In this document: piece by piece, positions 34,868 to 48,339 of the stretch
Layout: each line of letters begins with the position of its first letter
Numbering within the stretch: position 1 is the first letter of the stretch
Source of the DNA: an uncultured Planctomycetota bacterium
Lineage (GTDB): Bacteria > Planctomycetota > Planctomycetia > Pirellulales > Thermoguttaceae
Length of the DNA stretch: 64,000 bases
NCBI GenBank assembly: GCA_902786505.1
Contig: CADACS010000001.1
Location: forward strand, 1 to 64,000
Direction of reading: 5' to 3'
Program-made: the position numbers and the translations under genes
The notes under the pieces: model-generated
Seen by the model: the letters and a program-made list of their open reading frames with translations, nothing else
Database searches by the model: none
Told to the model about the DNA's origin: nothing

Positions 34868-36964
34868 CTACTTCGAGCATCGAATAAAGGTAATCGAGTG
34901 GGCGGGCAGGGAAATTTGCCCGTTCTCTACTTTGAGGACCTTTTCTTCCGGAACGACGTTATTCTCTTTTCCGACGTCGTTATAGTCGTCGGGCGCGTCG
35001 CCGGCGAGAACGGTCGCGTTAAGCTCTTGCGGCGTATGGCCGAGCAGCTTTTCCCATTGGACGGTCGCAGCCGCTGCGTTTTCCGGGTCCTTATTGACGA
35101 AGACAAGCGTAAACTTATCCTGCGCGTCGTTTACGGTAACGGCGGCGTCGAGTTTCGGAACCGTCTTTTTGCCGACGGTCAGCGGCTCGGAATAGAACTC
35201 GACTGGAAGGTAGTTCTTTTCGAGCAGACTGCCGTAGAGCTTAAAGAGATGGAACGTCGGGCGTTTAACGATTCCTTCCGGATAGACGTAGAGCGCGCCG
35301 CGCACGTTGACAATCGGGGAGAAGCACGCGATCTCGACGTCTTCGCAATGGCGCAGGCAGGAATTCAGGAAACACGCGGCGAAGACGGCGTCCGCCATTG
35401 TATAGACGGAATTGTCGTCGTTGAGTTTGCGCGCGTCTAAATCGAGCGCTTTCGGGTTCCCTATGCCCGGATGATACCAGCCGCGGAGATTCCATTCGTC
35501 GAACGCGATCTTCGTTTTGCCGCGGCGGCCCGTCCGTTCGAGCATGTCGATCGTGTGCAGGATATCCTGTTCCGGCGCGTTGGTCAGCGTCATGCATTCG
35601 GGGTACGGGAGCGGCTTCTTATTGGCGTCGAGCCAGGACCAATATCCGTGAATCGAGACGTAGTCGAGGAGATAGCCCGCCGAATTGAGGAGCGGAATCG
35701 TCCAGTCTTCGTTCGGGAGCGCGGCGGCGAACAGCTTGATATTCGCGTCGGTATTGATCATGAGCTTTCCGGATTCTCGCACGAACGGGCCCCATTCGGC
35801 GACCGTTTTCGCGCCCATTTCATGCCCGCCCCAGTTCTCGTTGCCGATACTCCAGTATTTGACGTTAAACGGCTCCTTATATCCGTGCTCGGCGCGCATC
35901 CGTCCGAATTTTCCCACGTTAAGATTGCAGTATTCGACCCAGTCGCTCATCTCTTCGGGGGTTCCGGTTCCGGCGTTCGTGCAGATATACGGCTCCGCGC
36001 CGATCATGCGGCACCACGCGACGTATTCCGCCGTCCCGAACGTATTGGGATCCTCGACGTGCCACGCTTTGTCGTAATAGGGCTGGCGTTCGGGCCCGAC
36101 GCCGTTAATCCAATGGTACGCGGAAACGAAGCATCCGCCGGGCCAGCGCACGATCGGAATATTGAGTTCTTTGAGCGCTTCGACGACGTCTTGGCGAAAG
36201 CCCGCCGCGTCGGAGAGGGGCGAGCCCGGCTCGAAGATTCCGCCGTAGACCTGACGGTGAAAATGCTCGACGAACTGCCCGAAAATCATTCGGTCGTACG
36301 GAATCGGCGCCGCGGAATCGGCGACCGTTAACTCGTTGAACTGATTGGCGCTTACGCTGTCCGTCTGATAGACGCAGTCCACTTTGATATGCGCCCAGTT
36401 GTCCTTCTTTTTTTTGTCGAAAATTACAAAACGCGCTTTCCGGTTCATATAAGGCTCGACGTTCCAGACTTTGCGTTCGAGCCCTTCGTGCCCGACCTGC
36501 GGAACGGAAAAGAGGCCCGTCTCCGTGAGGACTTCTTTGCCGTCGACCAGCAGACTGACGCCCGTCTCGCCCGGAAAACGCCCGCCCCCGATATAGAAGA
36601 CGATATTTTTGCGTTCGATGGTAAACTCAGGCGACGTGAGCGTTCCCGTCGAATCGTCCCCGTTCTGAAGGAACGTATTGACCAGCTTTCGCCCATGATA
36701 GCCGAAGACGTAACCCATGCCGCAGCGCTTATATCCCTGCGCGGGCGCGGTTCCGAACGCGTCCCCTTCGGCGGTCCAGCCTTCGTAATCCTGCCCTTCG
36801 AAGTCGGAAATAACAATATCGGGCCGCTGGGGCTCCTCGCCCGGAAGCGCGCGCTGAAAGAAGAACGCGCACAGGAACGCGGTCAAAAAGAAAAGCGCTT
36901 GATATCGCGGCCGAACAGAAAATAAGAATAGAAGATTGGCACGTTTCATTCTCTCTCGCCTCAT
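34868..36964 (-). CDS. Exported GH51-like alpha-L-arabinofuranosidase
   Basis: 698 residues from ATG 36964; ATG 36949 is also possible. One N-terminal hydrophobic segment (about 22-40) serves as signal or anchor. Residues of about 48-200 form a beta-sandwich resembling the GH32 C-terminal-type domain (VISDFEGQDYEGWTAEGDAF). The catalytic TIM barrel follows, with GQFVEHFHRQVYGGIFEPGS, VRWPGGCFV, the acid/base Glu376 in WSIGNENWGG and the nucleophile Glu490 in AFDEWN. The C-terminal beta domain ends in SITFIRC. The activity would be removal of L-arabinofuranose from arabinan or arabinoxylan outside the cytoplasm. It has its own promoter at 37109-37137. Confidence 0.92.
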   Translation of the reverse strand: MRRERMKRANLLFLFSVRPRYQALFFLTAFLCAFFFQRALPGEEPQRPDIVISDFEGQDYEGWTAEGDAFGTAPAQGYKRCGMGYVFGYHGRKLVNTFLQNGDDSTGTLTSPEFTIERKNIVFYIGGGRFPGETGVSLLVDGKEVLTETGLFSVPQVGHEGLERKVWNVEPYMNRKARFVIFDKKKKDNWAHIKVDCVYQTDSVSANQFNELTVADSAAPIPYDRMIFGQFVEHFHRQVYGGIFEPGSPLSDAAGFRQDVVEALKELNIPIVRWPGGCFVSAYHWINGVGPERQPYYDKAWHVEDPNTFGTAEYVAWCRMIGAEPYICTNAGTGTPEEMSDWVEYCNLNVGKFGRMRAEHGYKEPFNVKYWSIGNENWGGHEMGAKTVAEWGPFVRESGKLMINTDANIKLFAAALPNEDWTIPLLNSAGYLLDYVSIHGYWSWLDANKKPLPYPECMTLTNAPEQDILHTIDMLERTGRRGKTKIAFDEWNLRGWYHPGIGNPKALDLDARKLNDDNSVYTMADAVFAACFLNSCLRHCEDVEIACFSPIVNVRGALYVYPEGIVKRPTFHLFKLYGSLLEKNYLPVEFYSEPLTVGKKTVPKLDAAVTVNDAQDKFTLVFVNKDPENAAAATVQWEKLLGHTPQELNATVLAGDAPDDYNDVGKENNVVPEEKVLKVENGQISLPAHSITFIRCSK

Positions 36965-37108
36965 GTCTGCCTGTTGTGTTTTGTCGCGGCGCCGTCTGCG
37001 GAGAACGCGATCCGCCGAGCCGTAACTTGCGGAATCGGAACGGTTGCAACGGCGCCGCCAAACGCCCGAAAACGCTTCCTCCGGGACAAAAGTCTTTTTC
37101 CAAGCCCT

Positions 37109-37137
37109 ATTGTATCGGGCCGCGCCGGGTCCCGCAA
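37109..37137 (-). promoter_or_regulatory. Promoter of the arabinofuranosidase gene
   Basis: On the minus strand TTGCGG (37137-37132), 17-bp spacer, TACAAT (37114-37109). Confidence 0.6.
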
Positions 37138-37209
37138 GCTTTTTTGTAAAATTCGTCGCCGTCTAGCCTCGGCGCCCTTTTCACTTTCCGCGGAATTATT
37201 TGAAAAAGC

Positions 37210-37238
37210 TTGCAAAGCGCGCAAACTCTCTTTATACT
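37210..37238 (+). promoter_or_regulatory. Promoter of the HzsA-like gene
   Basis: TTGCAA (37210-37215), 17-bp spacer, TATACT (37233-37238). Confidence 0.6.
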
Positions 37239-37329
37239 ATTGACGTCGGCCGTCTAGAAAGAACGGAACGTCGGCGCGCCGTTTCCTTTTTATTTCCGCA
37301 CGCTTTCCTTTAACGCAACAGGAGCGCAC

Positions 37330-40128
37330 ATGAAACGTTCGGCTTTTTTGTTATTGACGCTGGCGGCGTCCGTCTGCCAACTGGCGCTGGGATTTGAACC
37401 GGTCGAATCGAAGGCGTCGCGCGTCAACTCGAATCCGCAGGATCTGACGGTCGAATTGAACGGCGCGAAGGATCTCTATCTTTACGCCGATTACGGGGGC
37501 GACTCTTACGACTGCGATCAGGCGATTTGGGCGAGTCCGAAACTGATTCGGAGAGACGGAACCGAAGTCGATCTCACGACGCTGACGCCGGAATCGGCCC
37601 AAACGGGCTGGGGCGAGCTGATCGTCAATAAGAACCACATGGGTCAGCCGCTCCAGATCGGCAAGTCGACCTACAAGACCGGCTTCTGGGCGCACGCGCC
37701 GTCCCTGCTGCACTTCAAGCTGGACGGCTCTTTCGAGCGCTTTACCGTTTCCGTCGGGCTCGACCGCAAAAACGCCGCGCGCGGATCCGCCGTCTTTCAC
37801 ATACTCGACAAGCCGGTCGAACTGCCCGCCCCGGAAGAATACAACAAGCTCAATCAGCAGGCGAAATACGCCCCGATTCCGCCGTCCGCCGAGACGGAGT
37901 TTACCTTCAACGCGCAGGCTGCGGAAAAACTGCTCGACGCCGGCGTCGAACAGCTTATCTTTGTTCGGCGCTATACTTACAACTCGAATCACGTCTATAC
38001 CGACCACGTCAACTGCGACTGGCTGCCCGGCGCCGGATTCTGCATACTCGACCTCAAGACGGGCAAGACGCGCGATCTCCTCTTTAACGAGCTTCACAAC
38101 GGCATGATCCAGCGCTTCGACGTCTCGTACGACGCCAAGAAAATCGTTTTCGATTTCCGCGCGTCGCCCAAAGAGGGCTATCGGATTTACGAAGCGAATC
38201 TCGACGGTACGGGCCTGCGTCAGCTTACGTTCCCGGTCGCGGACGAACAGGAGCTCGTTAAGAAGTACGCGCGCGGAAGTTACATGCACGGAACCGACGA
38301 CCTGCATCCGTGCTATCTGCCCGACGGCGGAATCGCGTTCGTTTCGACGCGCGCCCAGTTCAGCGTCCTTTGCGACTCGTCCGACAACTTTACCGTAACG
38401 AATCTCTACCGCATGGACGGGGACGGCGGTAATCTTCACGCGCTCACCTACAGCGCCCTCAACGAGCAGTCGCCCGCCGTCTTGCCCGACGGCAGAATTA
38501 TTTATCATCGCTGGGAATACGTCGATAAAGCGGCCGGAAACGCCAAAGCGCTCTGGGCGATCAATCCCGACGGCACGAGCCCCGCGGAAGTCTACGGCGA
38601 CAATATCTCGTTCCCCGAATCGATGATGTACCCGCGCCCGATTCCCGACGCCGACAATAAGATCGTCTTTCTCGGAACGTCGCACTGCTGCCCGAACAAC
38701 GCGTTCGGGACCGTAATTACGATCGACGCGAAAAACGACGCGCGTTCGGTCGACACGATGCATTACGTAACGAACGACGTGCGGACCTACCATCACAACG
38801 GCTTCCATTTTCTCGACGAAAACGGGGAATATCAGCACGACCTGACGGGCGTTCCGGGCCGTCTCTTTAAGGATCCGTATCCGATCTCCGAGGACCTGTT
38901 TATCGCGTCGCGCAAGCCGGCGGGGCTCGCATGGTCTGATCCGACCGGATACGACCTTGTCCTCCTCGATTACGACGGCGCGGAAACGCCGCTCCTTGCC
39001 GACGAAAACGCGTCCTGCTGGCACGCCGTGCCGATCTGGGAACGCGACGTCCCGCCCGTGCGTTCGAGCGTCGTCAACGAAGAACTGGCGAGTCAGAATC
39101 GCGCGCTCCTTGCCGTTACCGACGTCTACGCCGGCATGCCGGCCGTCGAGCGCGGTACCGTTAAGTATATCCGCATTTTGGAACAGGTTCCGCGGTCCTG
39201 GTCCGCGCGCAAAAGCTGGGGCGAAGATCACGAGGGAACGACCCACGCGCACAGCGCCGTCGCGAACGGCTCCCTGAGCGTTAAAGTGCAGCTTGGCGTC
39301 GTACCCGTGGAAGAAGACGGGAGCGCGTACTTCTACGTGCCCGCCGACCGCGCGCTCTATTTCCAGGCGCTCGACGAAAAGTACCGCGCCGTTCAGACGG
39401 AGCGCACGTACGTCAATTACCGGCCGGGCGAACAGCGCGCGTGCGTCGGATGCCATGAGATGCAGAACGAAGCGCCCCTGACGTCGAATCCGGTCGCGCC
39501 CAAGGCGCTCTCGAAAGAGCCGAGCGAACTTCTGCCGCAAAAGGGCCAGCCGAGCGCCGCGTTTACTTTCGATTACGACCGCCAGATTCAGCCGATTTGG
39601 AACGCGCGCTGCGTCTCCTGCCACGACGGACAGGAGGGTTCGGCCGCGCCCGATATGCGCGGCGACGCGAAATTGAACTATTCGATTTCCTACTGGAGTC
39701 TCGTCAACTTGGGCAATTCCGATAAGAACCTGCTCGGGAACCGCGCCGAACGCAACGAAGACGCCGCGAGCAACGGAATCGAGTTCATACCCGCGTATCA
39801 GAGCGGAACGCTCTCCAGCCCGCTCGGAGCCTGGCTCTTTGGCGAAACGGCCCTCAAAGACGCGCCCGACGCCGCGAAGGACGAGCTCAAGCTCCTTATC
39901 GAGAAGCATAAGGACGCGAACGTTCAGCTCACGGAAGCGGAGCTCCTGACCGTCGCGAACTGGCTCGACGTCAACGCGCCGTATCATCCGTCCTATTTCG
40001 GAAGACTTCACGAAAAATTCCAAGGGCGGCCCGATTACCGGCCGGAGGTTTCCGTCGAGGAAGCAAGGTCGAGAACGCTGCCGGAGCGGATTCAAAAGCT
40101 GTACGAGCAGGGGAACGCCGCGAAGTAA
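37330..40128 (+). CDS. HzsA-related exported cytochrome with NPCBM domain
   Basis: 932 residues with a signal peptide (MKRSAFLLLTLAASVCQLALG). An NPCBM-like carbohydrate-binding module (about 30-170, GFWAHAPSLLHFKLDG) precedes a TolB/WD-like propeller region. The YRIYEANLDGTGLRQLT, DDLHPCYLPDGGIAFVSTR and LPDGRIIYHRWEYVD segments are typical of the hydrazine-synthase-alpha-like family. Two c-type haem sites follow: CVGCH at Cys705 and CVSCH at Cys761. True HzsA is confined to anammox bacteria; relatives with the same fold and haems are widespread in planctomycetes with unknown redox roles. No hzsB/C partners are present, so hydrazine chemistry is not suggested. Sugar-linked electron transfer outside the cell is inference. 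Confidence 0.87.
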   Translation: MKRSAFLLLTLAASVCQLALGFEPVESKASRVNSNPQDLTVELNGAKDLYLYADYGGDSYDCDQAIWASPKLIRRDGTEVDLTTLTPESAQTGWGELIVNKNHMGQPLQIGKSTYKTGFWAHAPSLLHFKLDGSFERFTVSVGLDRKNAARGSAVFHILDKPVELPAPEEYNKLNQQAKYAPIPPSAETEFTFNAQAAEKLLDAGVEQLIFVRRYTYNSNHVYTDHVNCDWLPGAGFCILDLKTGKTRDLLFNELHNGMIQRFDVSYDAKKIVFDFRASPKEGYRIYEANLDGTGLRQLTFPVADEQELVKKYARGSYMHGTDDLHPCYLPDGGIAFVSTRAQFSVLCDSSDNFTVTNLYRMDGDGGNLHALTYSALNEQSPAVLPDGRIIYHRWEYVDKAAGNAKALWAINPDGTSPAEVYGDNISFPESMMYPRPIPDADNKIVFLGTSHCCPNNAFGTVITIDAKNDARSVDTMHYVTNDVRTYHHNGFHFLDENGEYQHDLTGVPGRLFKDPYPISEDLFIASRKPAGLAWSDPTGYDLVLLDYDGAETPLLADENASCWHAVPIWERDVPPVRSSVVNEELASQNRALLAVTDVYAGMPAVERGTVKYIRILEQVPRSWSARKSWGEDHEGTTHAHSAVANGSLSVKVQLGVVPVEEDGSAYFYVPADRALYFQALDEKYRAVQTERTYVNYRPGEQRACVGCHEMQNEAPLTSNPVAPKALSKEPSELLPQKGQPSAAFTFDYDRQIQPIWNARCVSCHDGQEGSAAPDMRGDAKLNYSISYWSLVNLGNSDKNLLGNRAERNEDAASNGIEFIPAYQSGTLSSPLGAWLFGETALKDAPDAAKDELKLLIEKHKDANVQLTEAELLTVANWLDVNAPYHPSYFGRLHEKFQGRPDYRPEVSVEEARSRTLPERIQKLYEQGNAAK

Positions 40129-40537
40129 CGCGCGGCGCGAGACGCGTTTGCGCTCCGCGAATTAACGTAAAAGCCAAAGGGACGGCTTCCGCCCTTTTGG
40201 CTTTTTCTTTTGGGTTCGGACGGCAGACGGCGCGGGGACTGGAGCGGCGTTCAATCGCGCGCGCCGACGCGTTAAAAGACAAATATTTAAAAGATTTTCA
40301 GGCGCTCTTTTATTCCCGTTTGATTGGCGGTATAATCACGGACGGCGCGGAATCGGATTCGTTTGATCCTGCGCCGGCGCTTATTGGCGGCGGCGCCGGA
40401 GCGGACGTTCACGGGGACTTTCTTTTCGGGGAACGGCGATCCAGCGTTGCTTTTTCTTGCGCCGCCTGTATTGCGGTCTTTATGTTTAAACTGGGTTTGC
40501 GGCAGTCGTATGCCGCGCAATACGTTAGGAGGTTCTC
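40129..40537. other. Intergenic region before the DUF1559 gene
   Basis: 409 bp. It holds the terminator at 40169-40210 and a TATAAT at 40331-40336 without a good -35 box. AGGAGG lies before the next start. Confidence 0.5.
40169..40210 (+). terminator. Terminator of the HzsA-like gene
   Basis: AAAAGCCAAAGGG (40169-40181) pairs with CCCTTTTGGCTTTT (40192-40205; one bulge), followed by TCTTTT. Confidence 0.8.
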
Positions 40538-41620
40538 ATGGGCAGGAATCGCAAAGGTTTTACCCTTGTTGAATTGCTGGTCGTCATCGCGATCATCGGT
40601 ATTTTAATCGGCCTTCTTCTTCCCGCGGTTCAGGCGGCTCGGGAAGCGGCGCGCCGCATGCAGTGCACGAACAATCTGAAGCAGCTCTGTCTGGCGATTC
40701 TCAATTACGCGGACCGCAATAAAGACATGCTGCCTGCGTTCGGCATGGGCTCGAACGGCAACTGCACGCCGTTCCTGTGCATCTTGCCGGAAATCGAGCA
40801 GAATCAGCGTTTTTCTGAAATCATGGCGCACCCCGCCGACCCCGCGTGGTACAATCCCTACAGCGACCAGAAGTGCTGGAAAGGCAAGATTACCGCGTTT
40901 AACTGCCCGTCCGACGCGTCGACCTCCTCGGCCGACGAGAACAAGCTCACGCCCGGCAACTACTGCTTCTGCGACGCCGACTACATCAACCGGCGTTACG
41001 GCCAGTGGGGGAACGAGCGGTCCGCGTTCGGTATGGAGCGGCGTTCCGACCAGTGGGCGGGCACCGACTGGGGCGGCGGGAGCCGGCCCCTTTCGTACGT
41101 CGTCGACGGCACGAGCAATACGATCGCCATGAGCGAGCACGTCGCGTCGCCCAGCGAGCTCGGCGTCGAGCACCGTCGGATTCTCGGCGGGTTCGCGCTG
41201 AATACGAACGCGTGGTCCTATACGCCGAACGTCTGCCTTGCGAAGCGCGGCGCGAACGGTCAGTTTGCCGCGGGCGTTGCGACGTCGGGCGGTATCGGCG
41301 AACGCGTCTTCTACTATTCGTACAACAACGCGATGTTCCAAACGATTCTGCCTCCGAACTCTCCTTCCTGCGGTCAGGACACGACGTTCCAGGACGCGGG
41401 CTATTTTCCGGCGACGAGCAATCACAGCGGCGGCGTCAACGTCGGCATGCTCGACGGGAGCGTCCGATTCGTGAGCGATACGGTGAACTGCGAAACGCCG
41501 GGCACGAGCGGACTTTCCGGCTGGTATAAATACTGGGGCTCGCAGAGCGGCGTCTCGCCGTTCGGCGTCTGGGGCGCGCTTGGCACCTGCAAGGCGGGCG
41601 AAACGAACGCGACTCTCTAA
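40538..41620 (+). CDS. DUF1559 prepilin-like protein (planctomycete type)
   Basis: 360 residues. The N-terminus is a type IV prepilin-like leader, [15 protein letters not shown] with Glu at +5, followed by the strongly conserved [17 protein letters not shown]. The C-terminal block [18 protein letters not shown] is the H-X9-DG signature of the DUF1559 family, which is hugely expanded in planctomycetes. AGGAGG precedes the ATG. The protein should be processed by a prepilin peptidase and anchored in or exposed beyond the membrane, possibly as a pseudopilin or surface protein. It is followed by its usual partner, a small lipoprotein with a transthyretin-like fold. Confidence 0.95.
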
Positions 41621-41650
41621 CGTCTGGACATTCGGAAAGGAGCTTTGCTC

Positions 41651-42184
41651 ATGAAAAGATTAGCGGCGTTGACGCTCGTTCTGCTCGCGTGTTCGGCGGC
41701 CTTTTCCGGCTGTCAGAAGTCTCGGCTTGACGGGCTTGTGGACGCGGAAGGCGTCGTTACGCTCAACGGGGAACCGGTCGCCGGCGCCACCGTCCTCTTT
41801 GCCCCGAAGCAGATCGGAGGACAGGCGGCGAGCGCGCAGGCGACTACCGACGAAAAGGGCGCCTTCAAGATGACGACGCTCGACCCGGGAGACGGCGTTT
41901 ATCCGGGCGAATATACCGTTACCGTTATGAAGGACCGGGTCGAGGGCGGCCTCTCGCCGGAAGAAGCGAAAGACCGCATGGACAATCCCGACAAATACAG
42001 GGGACAGGCGCCGCCGCCCCAGACGGTCGTGCACGAATTGCCCGTTAAGTACGCCGATTTGAATCAGTCCGGCTTGACCGTTAACGTGCCCCCCGGCGGA
42101 CAGAAAGATATCGCGCTCGCGCTCGAAGGGGAAGTCGATCTGACGCCGCAGGAGCAGACGGCGGGCCACGGCGGCGGCCGCTGA
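41651..42184 (+). CDS. Small lipoprotein with carboxypeptidase-regulatory (transthyretin-like) domain
   Basis: 177 residues from ATG 41651, preceded by AAAGGAG with 8-base spacing. The TTG six bases earlier is too close. The lipobox is AFSGC, with the lipidated Cys at about residue 21. The mature part EGVVTLNGEPVAGATVLFAP...TTDEKGAFKM...PGEYTVTV is a single beta-sandwich of the transthyretin-like/CarboxypepD_reg type. It sits directly after a DUF1559 gene, a pairing seen widely in planctomycetes, so the two probably act together at the cell surface. Its 3' end (from about 42124) is copied downstream as part of the tandem duplication. Confidence 0.88.
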   Translation: MKRLAALTLVLLACSAAFSGCQKSRLDGLVDAEGVVTLNGEPVAGATVLFAPKQIGGQAASAQATTDEKGAFKMTTLDPGDGVYPGEYTVTVMKDRVEGGLSPEEAKDRMDNPDKYRGQAPPPQTVVHELPVKYADLNQSGLTVNVPPGGQKDIALALEGEVDLTPQEQTAGHGGGR

Positions 42185-42319: not shown

Positions 42320-42348
42320 TTGAAACGCTCTTTTATGTTTTGTATAAT
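42320..42348 (+). promoter_or_regulatory. Promoter of paralogue 3
   Basis: TTGAAA (42320-42325), 17-bp spacer, TATAAT (42343-42348). The same boxes occur in unit B. Confidence 0.8.
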
Positions 42349-42423: not shown

Positions 42424-45177
42424 ATGAAAACTTCAGCGAAACGCTGGGCGGCGGTCGCCGCCGCGGCTGTCGTCGCTTTCTGTCTTATCTTGGGCGCCGC
42501 GCAGGGCGCGGATCCGCCGTCAAACGCGCCTTCTGAGGACGTTGTCATTTCGTTCCCCGAGGTTCCCGAAGGAAAGGACGCGGCGTTCTATCAGGATCTC
42601 CGCAAGCAGGTCGCGGACGCGCATCTGGAATTCATAAAGAAGATGCGTGGAAATTCAGATTATATCAGCCTTTCAAAAGAGGCGCTGCGGCAGTCGAACG
42701 AGGTCTATCGTAGGATTAACGCGCGTCTTATCGAGGCGCCCGGATTTGATCCCGACGCTTCTGAGGAAAACAACTTCATTCTGCGCCGAACGCTATTGGA
42801 GCAGGGTCGGGCCGACGAGCTTAACGCGCTTGTCGAAAAAGAACGCGCCAAGGAGACTCCTAACGAGCGTAAGATTAAGGAATGCGAACGTATGGCGCGC
42901 GCGGCGGCGATTATTAAGCCGTTTTTAGCGGGCGACGCCGACGCCGCGGCCGCGGAAATTCAGGCGTGCCTGGAAGCGGGCGATCCGCCGGGAGAAGGGG
43001 AAAGCCTTATGCCGGTCGACCTTGCCGAGAGAACGCTTACCGCGCTTGAAATATTCGACGCCGCCGACGCGATCGATTTGCAGTGCGCGCGATTTCTGGC
43101 CTCGGCCGGCGGTCAGGCCGCCGCTTCCAGGGCGCGCAGTTTCGGGATTTCGCGGTTTATGAATCTTGTCGGAAGGGAACTGACGCTCGAGGGAATCGCG
43201 CTCGACGGTACTGAAGTCAATATAAAGGATTATCGCGGCAAAATCGTTTTGGTCTTTGACATGACGCTCCGCGGACCCGACGAGGTGATGACCGCGCTCT
43301 TCGCCTACGACAGTTTTCACGAGTCGGGCTTTGACGTCATAGGCTATACCCCGGACGTCGATCTCGACGCTTGGAAGAAATACGCGGCGGATCATAAGCT
43401 GCCGTGGAAAACGATTTCGCGCAAAGCGACGCGCGACGCGCAAGATAAGAAATATCCCGATTTTACGGTCGATTACGGTATAAACGCGTATCCGACGCTC
43501 CTGCTCGTCGATCGGGCAGGCAAGGTTTTTAGAACGCATCTTCGCGGCGGCGCCGTCGCCGACGGTATTCAAGCGCTCCTCGAACAGGAAGGCGCCCAAA
43601 CGCCGGCGGCCGAAGAGAAGGGGCCGGGCGAATACGTCAAACGAGCCTTCGCGACGTTCGACGAATCCCTGCTCGATATTCCGGAAGGGAAAGATCCGGC
43701 GTTCTACGAGGCCGCGCTCCGAAAGCTCAACGCCGAATCCCAGAATTATTTCAGAGCGAACGATCCGCGCGACGTTATCCCCGGGCTTCAAGGCCGCGTG
43801 TTCGACGCGCGCAGGAAGCTAATGAATTGGATCGCGCTGGCAAAGGGCCCGGAGCTGCTGAAGACCGACGGTTCCGCCTTGCCGGAAAATTTTACGGTTC
43901 GGGGGCCGGGCGCTATGGCTTCCCAAAAGACCGATTCTAAGACCGGCGCGCCGAGAAATACGGGGGTTATTCGCGGCGGCGGACTGGACGCCCAAAGGAA
44001 GACCGATATTAAACGCTACGCGGTCGCGCTGGCGGAGCTCGGGAAATACGACGAGCTCGTCGCGGCTGTCGACGCGCTGGAGTCGCCCGATCCGCCCGAC
44101 GAAGAGCTCGTTGCGAGCGTTAAGAGAGAGCTTCCGCTCGCTAAGACGGCGCAGACCGCCTTTTCCGGGGACGACGCGGCGATCGACGCCATGTTCGACG
44201 AAGAGCTCGACCGGTTCCTCAACGCCGGCCTGTCCGACGGAAACGCGCGCATGGAGCTCGAGCGGTTCGCGAGCCGGCTTACGCGAATCGAACGCTTCGA
44301 TCTCGTCGAGCGCCTGGCGGCCCGCGCGGAAGAGCGGCTCATGCCGCATGAAACTCAATATCACGACGCGCTCAGGACCGTCCAAGAGCTTAGACGGCGC
44401 AGTTTAAGCGCTCTGGAAGGAACGGTTCCGCCCGTTGAGGGGACCCTCTCGGACGGAACGGAATTCAACTGGGAGAATTATCGCGGCAAGTATACGCTTC
44501 TCCTCCTGTGTTCCTCAAAATGGCAGGTTCATCAGCCGGGCTATATTGAATTTTGCCCGATCCACAGCGTTAAACAGCTTTACGCGCAGTATCGGAAAGC
44601 CGGATTTGAGGTCGTCGGCTATACGAACGACGAACCGGAAGTCTGGCAAAAGTTCGAACAGGAGAACGAAATTCCGTGGAAGACGGTCGTCCGCAAGGCG
44701 TCGCCGAACGCCGGAGAACGCGATTTCTACGAGTTTTACGGTATTTCGCCGAATTCGATTCTCGTAGGCCCGGACGGAAAAGCGATCGAGCGCCTCAAAG
44801 GGAGCGCGCCGCTCCGGAACCGGCTCGCGCGCTATCTTCCCGACGCGGCGACGCCCGAAGAGGAGGATTACTATACTTCGATTCTGACCGTCCCGGAAGG
44901 AAAGGATCCTCAGTTCTACTGGGACCGCAAACGCGAGCTTGGCGAAGCGTTTTTCGATTACCGCGGCCACAACTACCTTTGGAAACCGGGCGAACATGCG
45001 AAAGAGGAGCGATGGAACAAGGCGTCGGCGGACGCGACAAAGCAGGCCGACAAGTTCCTCGCCGAGCTCGGCGCGTCGCCGTATCCCATAAGTAAGGTCG
45101 TCTTTGAGGTTCAGCTTCTTCCAAGGGACGCCAAAGACGGAACCGGCGCGGAATCCTCGCCGAACTCTGAGAAATAA
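42424..45177 (+). CDS. Large double-module TlpA-like protein without CxxC, paralogue 3
   Basis: 917 residues with signal peptide (about 1-28). Module 1 has the box FPEVPEGKDAAFY (about 44-56), a helical region, and a thioredoxin-like domain (about 245-390). In this domain VLVFDMTLRGPDEVM replaces the usual VDFWATWCGPC, so the CGPC position reads RGPD. Module 2 repeats the plan: LLDIPEGKDPAFY (about 413-425), helices, and a second thioredoxin-like domain (about 680-810) with LLLCSSKWQVHQPGYIEFC; the redox pair is again absent. A third box TVPEGKDPQFY (about 819) opens a truncated module. Cis-Pro-like loops (YPTLLLVDRAGK) persist. A binding or chaperone role rather than redox catalysis is inferred. 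It is the tandem twin of paralogue 4. Confidence 0.85.
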   Translation: MKTSAKRWAAVAAAAVVAFCLILGAAQGADPPSNAPSEDVVISFPEVPEGKDAAFYQDLRKQVADAHLEFIKKMRGNSDYISLSKEALRQSNEVYRRINARLIEAPGFDPDASEENNFILRRTLLEQGRADELNALVEKERAKETPNERKIKECERMARAAAIIKPFLAGDADAAAAEIQACLEAGDPPGEGESLMPVDLAERTLTALEIFDAADAIDLQCARFLASAGGQAAASRARSFGISRFMNLVGRELTLEGIALDGTEVNIKDYRGKIVLVFDMTLRGPDEVMTALFAYDSFHESGFDVIGYTPDVDLDAWKKYAADHKLPWKTISRKATRDAQDKKYPDFTVDYGINAYPTLLLVDRAGKVFRTHLRGGAVADGIQALLEQEGAQTPAAEEKGPGEYVKRAFATFDESLLDIPEGKDPAFYEAALRKLNAESQNYFRANDPRDVIPGLQGRVFDARRKLMNWIALAKGPELLKTDGSALPENFTVRGPGAMASQKTDSKTGAPRNTGVIRGGGLDAQRKTDIKRYAVALAELGKYDELVAAVDALESPDPPDEELVASVKRELPLAKTAQTAFSGDDAAIDAMFDEELDRFLNAGLSDGNARMELERFASRLTRIERFDLVERLAARAEERLMPHETQYHDALRTVQELRRRSLSALEGTVPPVEGTLSDGTEFNWENYRGKYTLLLLCSSKWQVHQPGYIEFCPIHSVKQLYAQYRKAGFEVVGYTNDEPEVWQKFEQENEIPWKTVVRKASPNAGERDFYEFYGISPNSILVGPDGKAIERLKGSAPLRNRLARYLPDAATPEEEDYYTSILTVPEGKDPQFYWDRKRELGEAFFDYRGHNYLWKPGEHAKEERWNKASADATKQADKFLAELGASPYPISKVVFEVQLLPRDAKDGTGAESSPNSEK

Positions 45178-45188
45178 TCTTTTTGCGG

Positions 45189-45220
45189 CGCGCGGGGGCG
45201 GGAGCTTCCGCGCGTTTTTT
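45189..45220 (+). terminator. Terminator of paralogue 3
   Basis: CGCGCGG (45189-45195) pairs with CCGCGCG (45208-45214), then TTTTTTTA. Duplicated at 48215-48247. Confidence 0.8.
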
Positions 45221-45324
45221 TACGCTCGAGCCTCTTGAATTCCGAACGCGGCGCGCCGCTTCCGTTTTAATAACTCAAAGAGCCGAACAGACCCCGCTGA
45301 TCTTTTTCATAACGTTTTTAAGGG

Positions 45325-45392
45325 CGCTCGTGCACGAAGGGGAAGTCGATCTCACAGACGGCGGGCCACGTCGGCGGCCGCGAGGTCTTGCG
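45325..45392 (+). pseudogene. Relic of the lipoprotein gene's 3' end
   Basis: The sequence reads E-G-E-V-D-L-T like the C-terminus of the lipoprotein at 42127-42147. It then loses 6 bp and shifts relative to the parent (GACGGCGGGCCACGTCGGCG against GACGGCGGGCCACGGCGGCG). No start codon or upstream part of the gene is present. Confidence 0.75.
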
Positions 45393-45514
45393 CGCTTTTG
45401 GACCGGTTCTTTCGTTTGGCCGCGTAAACGCGTCCGTCCGTTCAAGCGATTGATCGAGCGCCTGTTTTCGCCGGCCTGCTGAATATTTGCTTTTGAAGTC
45501 TTTTTGGCCGGCTC

Positions 45515-45543
45515 TTGAAACGCGACTTTATGTTTTGTATAAT
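45515..45543 (+). promoter_or_regulatory. Promoter of paralogue 4
   Basis: TTGAAA (45515-45520), 17-bp spacer, TATAAT (45538-45543), kept exactly as in unit A although the flanking bases have changed. Confidence 0.8.
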
Positions 45544-45611
45544 CCGCTCAGTTTGGGGTTAACTTTTCGCTTCAATTTTATTTTTTTTAGAATGCGTTAG
45601 AGGATAATAGG

Positions 45612-48203
45612 ATGAAATCTTCAGCGAAACGCCGTTCGTCTCTCGCCGTCGCGTCTATTGCCGTCTTCTGCCTTATCTTGGGCGCCGCGCAGGGCGCGGA
45701 TCCGCCGTCAAGCGCGCCTTCTGAGGACGTTGCAATTTCGTTCCCCGAGGTTCCCGACGGGAAGGACGCGGCGTTCTATCAAGATCTCAGCAAACAGGTC
45801 GCCGACGCGTATCTTCAGTATTTGAATAAGATCAAGGGCGGTCCGAATTATATCGAGCTTTCCAACGCGGCTCAGAAGAGGTTGGGCGAGGTCGATCGCA
45901 AAATTACCGAGCGTCTTATCGAGGCGCCCGGATTTGATCCCGACGCGTCCGACGAGAACAACTTCATTCTGCTCCGAACGCTATTGGCGCAGGGCCGGGT
46001 CGACGATCTCAACGCGCTTGCCGAAAAAGAGCGCGCCAAGGAGACCCCTATCGAGTATAGAATCAAGGAAAGTGAACGCATGGCGCGCGCGGCGGCGATT
46101 ATTAAGCCGTTTTTAGAGGGCGACGCCGACGCCGCGGCCGCGGAAATTCAGAAGCAGCTGGAAGCGGGCGATCCGCCGGGAATTTGGGAAAGTCTTATGC
46201 CGGTAGACCTTGCAAAAGAGACGCTTGCCGCGCTTGAAATGCTCGACGCCGCCGACACGGTCGAATTGCGGTGCGCGCGCTTTCTGGCCTCGGTCGACTC
46301 CGAAGACGCGCTCAATATGTCGCACAGTTTCGGGATTTCGCGGTTTTTGAACCTTGTCGGAAGGGAATTGACCCTTGAAGGAATTGCGACCGACGGAACG
46401 GAAGTCAATATAAAGGATTATCGCGGTAAAATTGTTTTGGTCTTCAGCATAACGCTCCGCTCGCCCGGCGAGCTTATGACCGCGCTTACCGCCTACGACA
46501 GATTTCACGATTTGGGCTTTGAAGTCGTGGGCTATGCTCCCGACGACGATCTCGACGCTTGGAAGAAGTATGTAACGGATCATAAGCTGCCGTGGAAAAC
46601 GATTTCGCACAAAGCGACGCGCGACGCGCAAGATAAGAAATATCCTGATTTTACGGTTGATTACGGCATAAACGCCTCTCCGACGCTCCTGCTCGTCGAT
46701 CGGGCCGGCAAGGTTTTTAGAACGTATCTTCTCGGCCGCGGCGTCGCCGAAGCTATTCAAGAGCTCCTTGAACAGGAAGGCGTCGAACCGCCCGCGGCCG
46801 AAGAGAATGCGCCGGGCGAATACGTCAAACGCGCCTTCGCGACGTTCGACGAATCGCTGCTCGATATTCCGGAAGGAAAAGATCCGGAGTTCTACGAGGC
46901 CGCGCTCCGAAAGCTCAACGTCGAATCCCAGAATTATTTCAAAGCGAACGATCCGCGCGCCATTCCTCCCGGGCTTTCAAGCCGCGTGTATGAAGTAAGT
47001 AAGAAAGTGAAAAATTGGATCGCGCTGGCGAGAGGGCCGGAAGTCTTGAAGAAGACTGTTTCCGAAACCGGCATGCCGGAAAATGCGGCGATTTTTTACG
47101 GCAGCGGACTGGCCGACAAAAGGAAGGCCGTCATTAGAGACTATGCGGTTGCGTTGGCGGAACTCGGGAAATACGACGAGCTTACCGCGGCTGTCGACGC
47201 GTTAGAGTCGCTTGATCCGCCGGACGAAGAGCTCGTCGCGCGCGTTAAGGAAGAGCTGCCGCTCGCTAAGACGGCGCAGACCGCCTTTTCCGGAGACGAC
47301 GCCGCGATCGACGCTATGTTCGACGCGGAACTCGACCGGTTCCTGAACGCCGGAATTTCCGACGGGAAAGCGCGCATGGCGTTAGACAGATTTGTCGACC
47401 GGCTTTATCAAATTAAACGCTTCGATCTCATCGCGCGGTTGGCGGTCCGTGCGGAGAAACGGCTCATGCCGCATGAAACTCAATTTTACGACGCGTTTAG
47501 GACCGTCCAAGATCTGAGACGGCGCAGTCTGGGCGCTCAGGAATTAACGGTTCCGCCCGTCGAGGGGAAGTTCTCGGACGGAACGGAATTCAACTGGGAG
47601 AATTACCGCGGCAAGTATACGCTTCTCCTCCTGTCTTCCGCGAAGTGGATGGCTCGTCAGCAGGGTCATATTGAGTTTTGCCCGATCTACAACGTTAAAG
47701 AGCTTTACGCGCAGTATCGCGACGCCGGATTTGAAGTTGTCGGCTATACGAACGACGAGCCGGAAGTCTGGCGGAAGTTCGAACGGGAAAACGAAATTCC
47801 GTGGAAGACGGTCGTCCGCAAGGCGACGCCGTACGCCGGCGAACAGGATTTCTTCGAGTTCTACGCTATTTCTCCGAACTCGATTCTCGTAGGTCCGGAC
47901 GGGAAAACAATCGAGCGTCTCCAAGGGAGCGCGCCGCTCCGGAATCGGCTCGCGTATTACCTGCCCGACGCGGCGACGCCCGAAGAGAAGGATTACTATA
48001 CTTCGATTCTGACCGTCCCGGAAGGAAAAGATATTTTGTTCTACTGGGATCGTAAACGCGAACTTGAAGAGGCGTTTTTCGACGCCCGCGGTCACAACTA
48101 CCTCTGGAAACCGGGCGAGCGTGCGAAAGAGGAGCAATGGTACAAGGCGTCGGCGGAGGCGGTTAAAAAGTGCGACAAGTTCATCGCCGACCTCGAGAAA
48201 TAA
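45612..48203 (+). CDS. Large double-module TlpA-like protein without CxxC, paralogue 4
   Basis: 863 residues, clearly the duplicate of paralogue 3 (same signal peptide, modules and order). The boxes are FPEVPDGKDAAFY (about 44), LLDIPEGKDPEFY (about 413) and TVPEGKDILFY (about 798). The first thioredoxin-like domain has VFSITLRSPGELM at the active-site position, the second LLLSSAKWMARQQGHIEFC. Both again lack the Cys pair, while the lone Cys in EFCPI and the following VKELYAQYRDAGFEVVGY are kept. It is about 54 residues shorter than its twin because of a shorter loop in the middle and a shortened C-terminus. The frame is intact, so it is under selection or young. Function inferred as for paralogue 3. 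Confidence 0.85.
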   Translation: MKSSAKRRSSLAVASIAVFCLILGAAQGADPPSSAPSEDVAISFPEVPDGKDAAFYQDLSKQVADAYLQYLNKIKGGPNYIELSNAAQKRLGEVDRKITERLIEAPGFDPDASDENNFILLRTLLAQGRVDDLNALAEKERAKETPIEYRIKESERMARAAAIIKPFLEGDADAAAAEIQKQLEAGDPPGIWESLMPVDLAKETLAALEMLDAADTVELRCARFLASVDSEDALNMSHSFGISRFLNLVGRELTLEGIATDGTEVNIKDYRGKIVLVFSITLRSPGELMTALTAYDRFHDLGFEVVGYAPDDDLDAWKKYVTDHKLPWKTISHKATRDAQDKKYPDFTVDYGINASPTLLLVDRAGKVFRTYLLGRGVAEAIQELLEQEGVEPPAAEENAPGEYVKRAFATFDESLLDIPEGKDPEFYEAALRKLNVESQNYFKANDPRAIPPGLSSRVYEVSKKVKNWIALARGPEVLKKTVSETGMPENAAIFYGSGLADKRKAVIRDYAVALAELGKYDELTAAVDALESLDPPDEELVARVKEELPLAKTAQTAFSGDDAAIDAMFDAELDRFLNAGISDGKARMALDRFVDRLYQIKRFDLIARLAVRAEKRLMPHETQFYDAFRTVQDLRRRSLGAQELTVPPVEGKFSDGTEFNWENYRGKYTLLLLSSAKWMARQQGHIEFCPIYNVKELYAQYRDAGFEVVGYTNDEPEVWRKFERENEIPWKTVVRKATPYAGEQDFFEFYAISPNSILVGPDGKTIERLQGSAPLRNRLAYYLPDAATPEEKDYYTSILTVPEGKDILFYWDRKRELEEAFFDARGHNYLWKPGERAKEEQWYKASAEAVKKCDKFIADLEK

Positions 48204-48309: not shown

Positions 48310-48339
48310 TTGCAAACGGCGCCGCGTTTGCGTTATAAT
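48310..48339 (+). promoter_or_regulatory. Promoter of paralogue 5
   Basis: TTGCAA (48310-48315), 18-bp spacer, TATAAT (48334-48339). Confidence 0.6.

Follow-up and report, generated by a model that had tools for sequence, protein, structure and literature searches.

Thioredoxin (Trx) folds without a CxxC motif are known from PDI b domains, ERp29 and calsequestrin, where they bind proteins or ions and do not exchange disulfides. In E. coli, the SxxC holdase CnoX (YbbN) combines a CxxC-less Trx domain with a helical domain (PMC8129009, PMC6282202), and its second cysteine, Cys63, forms mixed disulfides with clients (PMC6282202). This precedent shows that a Trx domain lacking CxxC, when combined with a helical domain, is able to act as a holdase. 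A literature search returned no report of CxxC-less TlpA-like families in Planctomycetes.

We analyzed two tandem genes, P3 (42424..45177, 917 aa) and P4 (45612..48203, 863 aa), in a 64,000-nucleotide stretch of DNA from an uncultured Planctomycetota bacterium (the whole stretch is called the window below). The array genes, their parts and their signals all lie on the + strand. The two proteins are 75% identical and have the same architecture. As stated in the earlier note on this DNA, both frames are intact over 2.6-2.7 kb, with zero internal stops. ORF length says little here because this GC-rich DNA has long antisense ORFs too; P3 and P4 are real genes on the evidence of codon-level selection. 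Their description as tandem proteins with duplicated Trx-like modules also stands, with exact coordinates and two Pfam redoxin/AhpC-TSA stretches in each protein (whole-protein scores above the gathering score), but the duplicated piece is a whole unit of helical domain plus Trx module, and a tail hairpin had been overlooked. Two stretches of P3, aa 6-383 and aa 411-788, both match the active single-unit paralogue P5, which makes two complete units. Each protein is thus built of a helical domain and a Trx module, twice, after which a third unit begins: the C-terminal 60-80 aa contain another copy of the unit's first hairpin, with its VPEGKDxxFY signature.

P3 begins with a putative Sec-type signal peptide (42424..42510, a hydrophobic stretch ending AQG-AD, judged by eye), and P4 has one too by the same judgement. 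In P3, helical domain 1 (42535..43170; profile A2, E 3e-54) is followed by CxxC-less Trx module 1 (43153..43572; profile A1, E 7e-47), helical domain 2 (43651..44406; A2, E 1e-55), CxxC-less Trx module 2 (44404..44841; A1, E 1e-43) and the C-terminal copy of the first helical hairpin, VPEGKDPQFYWDR... (44866..44970; A2, 21.5 bits). The corresponding parts of P4 are found by the same profiles at 45720..46358 (A2, E 2e-65), 46341..46769 (A1), 46839..47531 (A2, E 3e-66), 47553..47957 (A1) and 47994..48179 (A2, 19.4 bits; two helices in the structure model).

CxxC is missing from all four Trx modules of the twins. Alignment confirms the reported replacement of WCGPC in both modules of both proteins: the site reads LRGPD (P3) and LRSPG (P4) in module 1, and WQVHQPGYIEFC (P3) and WMARQQGHIEFC (P4) in module 2. 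The module 1 sites can still be read as point changes of TWCGPC, in a loop that is three residues shorter (DMTLRGPDEVMTALF, 43258..43302, in P3; SITLRSPGELMTALT, 46446..46490, in P4). The module 2 loop (LCSSKWQVHQPGYIEFCPIHSVKQ, 44506..44577, in P3; LSSAKWMARQQGHIEFCPIYNVKE, 47631..47702, in P4) has 24 residues and is unrelated to the 18-residue loops of the active modules. A cis-Pro-like loop had been described as well kept; this is true of module 1 (NAYPT/NASPT), but in module 2 the loop is shortened by two residues. The one cysteine said to be kept in both twins, in EFCPI of module 2, is indeed present in both. Besides it, the only mature cysteine common to P3 and P4 is Cys 221 (LQCARFL/LRCARFL), outside the Trx modules. 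Several trivial origins of the altered sites were considered and rejected. Alternative frames across the loops contain no WCGPC, so there is no compensated frameshift; the lack of in-frame stops in P3 and P4 argues against selenocysteine in place of cysteine; and a colinear second genome (G017) carries the P3 start, which argues against an assembly artefact.

Structures of the P4 units were modelled with AlphaFold2 using an alignment of 49 related units. The models have a mean pLDDT of 90.3 and pTM of 0.82 for unit 1, and 81.1 and 0.69 for unit 2 with the tail. The Trx part of unit 1 matches 4grf with Z 17.7 (136 residues, 2.3 A) and that of unit 2 with Z 16.3 (137 residues, 2.5 A); ResA structures give Z of about 15-16 and about 14-15, respectively. 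The comparison with TlpA/ResA proposed earlier thus yields confident thioredoxin folds for both P4 modules. With the NCBIfam ResA model, P3 and P4 score 33-38 bits, below the cut-off of 170, and the active paralogues P1, P2 and P5 (67-79 bits) are likewise below it. P3 and P4 share with TlpA/ResA-like oxidoreductases (including Bacteroides 4grf) the predicted thioredoxin fold and a putative signal peptide, and their sequences are close kin of P1, P2 and P5; they differ in lacking CxxC, in having two modules per chain and in the family-less helical domain ahead of each module. We therefore regard them as relatives of TlpA/ResA and not as members by function, because the fold is there and the CxxC motif is not.

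The helical domain has nine helices in the model of P4 unit 1. By sequence, it has no significant match in Pfam or in the PDB, and all structure matches listed for the P4 unit models fall in the Trx module. A weak TPR_14 match was seen in P3/P4 (E 0.88), and in the Pfam comparison of the helical domain the TPR family is not among the matches listed. Like P3 and P4, CnoX combines a Trx domain without CxxC, a helical domain and an extra cysteine off the canonical site. However, CnoX has one Trx domain followed by TPR and works with cytoplasmic DnaK and GroEL, whereas in P3 and P4 the helical domain precedes the Trx module, twice, and a putative signal peptide is carried. P3 and P4 differ from CnoX in domain order, in the number of copies and in presumed location, and are not CnoX proteins. 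The redox-inactive domains of the PDI family are eukaryotic and have no helical domain ahead of each module.

Between the twins, dN/dS is 0.39 (Nei-Gojobori; bootstrap 95% CI 0.32-0.49), a pairwise value between paralogues with a dS of 0.33, which is not saturated. This is well below 1 and excludes the neutral pattern that would have spoken against function: P3 and P4 are kept under purifying selection and are not decaying. By part, helical domain 1 has a dN/dS of 0.54, the two Trx modules have values of 0.32 and 0.29, and their former active-site loops have about 1.0 and 0.56. Together with the fold models, these values support the view that redox chemistry was lost at the canonical site while the fold was retained. 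For orthologue pairs in other species, dN/dS is 0.25-0.57 in CxxC-less and 0.11-0.35 in active genes.

The active single-unit paralogues of the same array family in the window are P1 (31161..32330, WCPPC), P2 (32670..33863, WCGPC) and P5 (48415..49602, WCGPC), as identified by Pfam and alignment. About 8.5 kb of other genes (window 34868-42184) split the array between P2 and P3; they encode an arabinofuranosidase, a protein with HZS_alpha, NPCBM and cytochrome domains, a DUF1559 pilin-like protein and a lipoprotein-like protein. That the twins lie next to active paralogue 5 is true, and the arrangement is conserved, but each of P3, P4 and P5 seems to be transcribed on its own. Sigma-70-like promoter-like sites are located about 70-75 bp 5' of the start codons of P3 (TTGAAA-17-TATAAT, 42320..42348, 11 of 12 consensus positions), P4 (the same motif, 45515..45543, 11 of 12) and P5 (TTGCAA-18-TATAAT, 48310..48339, 10 of 12), and near-identical terminator-like hairpins of 13 pairs each follow P3 (45187..45216) and P4 (48213..48242). 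These signals, which are consensus matches and not proof, speak against a P3-P4-P5 operon. The reading in which the twins serve P5 as a fixed partner is therefore weakened. The upstream regions of P3 and P4 are 76% identical over 251 columns and the sequences 3' of the two stop codons are nearly identical; by this likeness, the duplication took the upstream region along. A DsbD-type redox partner is encoded in the genome, which tells us nothing about P3/P4.

Among a limited set of candidates scored in each genome, the helical-domain profile has matches in all 20 searched genomes of the genus, none of 99 genomes from other genera of the family and none of 391 further genomes sampled phylum-wide. 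A plasmid search gave nothing beyond one distant TlpA match. At the examined loci there are 56 active and 81 CxxC-less modules, and the double-module architecture without CxxC recurs, in 11 ORFs from three genomes (G000, G006, G018); these counts cover search-ranked loci, with weak modules (over 30 bits) included, and are not an unbiased census. Two further double-module ORFs, in G012, each have at least one active module. The twins are thus not an isolated oddity but one case of a genus-wide pattern.

In several species the unit arrays occupy one conserved locus, in which active WCGPC/WCPPC members stand next to CxxC-less ones. Homologues of the window's TPR, esterase and FGE-like genes (26-31 kb) precede the array in G003, G006, G010 and G018, and where the contig continues (G003, G010, G018) homologues of the window genes at 50-57 kb come after it. 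The array is contiguous in G010, G006 and G018 and interrupted between P2 and P3 in the window. The gene order in G010 is P1-type, CxxC-less, P2-type, CxxC-less, P5-type; positional homologues of P3/P4 are found between the P2-type and P5-type active genes (G010, G018) or directly before the P5-type gene (G006). G017 is colinear with the window, with 94-95% identical DNA on both sides. Over 78 comparable codons its P3 start is 93.6% identical to P3 and 66.7% to P4, which places the P3/P4 duplication before the split from G017. The remainder of both genes is lost in a gap of the G017 assembly, and the only match to P4 in the genome contigs is the same partial P3 gene in G017. G017 also has about 2 kb extra relative to the window (L057:5346-7451), part of which is a second region that matches the DUF1559 gene.

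In a unit tree built with the loop columns removed, the P3/P4 units and the CxxC-less block units of G006, G010 and G018 (11 units) fall on one side of a branch with support 97/96, which is consistent with one CxxC loss before their spread. The Trx-module tree needs seven state changes, three of them forced by starred branches. More than one loss of CxxC in the genus is therefore probable, in a count limited by the small number of columns and by quick supports. In the twins, the two units 1 group together, as do the two units 2, so fusion preceded the duplication of the P3/P4 gene. Judging by the arrangement of units, fusion happened independently more than once: unit B stands alone in G006 but is joined to A in G018, and for unit C it is the other way round. 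A tail remnant between units is present in the unit B/C fusions and absent in P3/P4, and such differences could be explained by recombination between homologous tail and N-terminal hairpins.

The explanation we prefer, to which we give about an even chance, is that P3 and P4 are exported, catalytically dead TlpA/ResA-like relatives of P1, P2 and P5 that have been kept as binding proteins. The Trx modules would be folded scaffolds which, with the helical domains, hold other proteins instead of exchanging disulfides at the old site; the clients could be folding intermediates or envelope partners and the role that of a holdase or an adaptor. We infer periplasmic export, the binding activity and the nature of the clients; the binding, chaperone or partner-holding role suggested in the earlier note is plausible by analogy. 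It is favoured by the retained fold, the dN/dS of the twins and the constrained CxxC-less orthologue pairs elsewhere, as well as by the syntenic CxxC-less homologues, the P3 start in G017 and the well-supported branch. The missing sign of an operon with P5 counts against it. A binding role of the helical domain is an analogy, since this domain belongs to no recognised family, and the weaker constraint on helical domain 1 makes it a poor fit as the main conserved binding surface. That the twins are decaying duplicates on the way to pseudogenes would agree with a moderately high dN/dS and a relaxed loop, but it is very improbable given two intact frames, the confidence interval of dN/dS, the promoter-like and terminator-like signals and the syntenic homologues in other species.

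A more specific reading holds that the loop at the old active site, once CxxC had gone, took on ligand binding as a variable loop carried by a fixed scaffold. Active modules have loops of exactly 18 residues (56/56), whereas in CxxC-less modules (n=33) the length is 15-25; mean column entropy in the latter is 3.0 bits in the loop against 1.35 and 1.9 in the scaffold flanks, and in active modules 0.87, 0.84 and 1.24 (loop and two flanks, in that order). The CxxC-less modules thus appear in alignment as a hypervariable loop on a conserved scaffold. P3 and P4 differ at 40-42% of loop sites against 12% elsewhere in the module (about 3.4 times; Fisher p 0.0013 for module 2 and 0.064 for module 1), and engineers have displayed random peptides at the same thioredoxin site (PMC3681763). 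Yet a loop freed from catalysis would drift too, the dN/dS of the twins' loops is not above 1, and one close pair of CxxC-less units (unit B) has an unchanged loop. The variability would fit drift and diversifying selection alike. We regard this reading as doubtful, and as equally doubtful its extension that tandem duplication and unit fusion build a specificity repertoire. Alternatively, the repeated units could make up a long exported or surface structure that serves no particular client, which would suit the tandem fusion and the genus relatives in which several helical hairpin motifs occur in proteins of up to 1,307 aa; since some relatives have multiple copies of the hairpin but no more than two Trx modules, we find this improbable. 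Redox chemistry might also be altered and not lost, with the EFCPI cysteine of module 2, and possibly Cys 221, forming mixed disulfides with clients. These are the shared cysteines, and CnoX SxxC proteins retain a second cysteine with this property (PMC6282202), but module 1 has no cysteine at all and the EFC cysteine is not a family feature, being absent from related CxxC-less block units of other species. This we consider rather improbable.

Beyond the preferred binding-protein reading, it is conceivable, though a long shot, that the tandem TlpA-like arrays of this genus are a source of binding proteins, through repeated CxxC loss, a variable recognition loop and units that fuse and re-sort. 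If so, they would be a natural counterpart of thioredoxin-displayed peptide libraries. Here one can trace, gene by gene across related species and beside active paralogues at the same locus, how a catalytic site disappeared from a conserved fold, and the question of why a thioredoxin fold is retained after redox chemistry has been lost becomes directly testable. The helical domain, which no other genus of the searched Planctomycetota was found to have, is an undescribed addition to a very common protein family.

Other members of the family show further arrangements. A separate CxxC-less orthologue group stands directly before an active gene in six genomes (L058:6251-7618, L060:3835-5163, L080:15912-17333, L083:6855-8234, L084:13059-14429, L086:10835-12250), and is under weaker constraint (dN/dS 0.36-0.57) than this active neighbour (0.11-0.21). 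ORFs of 1,028-1,307 aa (L080:9922-13845, L058:9253-12339, L060:15878-19003) have several helical hairpin motifs; their Trx modules are strongly diverged or undetected, and active copies are nearby. A protein of G012 (L050:3864-5903) pairs a dead, CxxC-less module with a live one that has WCGPC. In one P5-type gene of G003 (L051:6067-7302) the site reads WCGPY in place of WCGPC, which may reflect a recent and partial loss.
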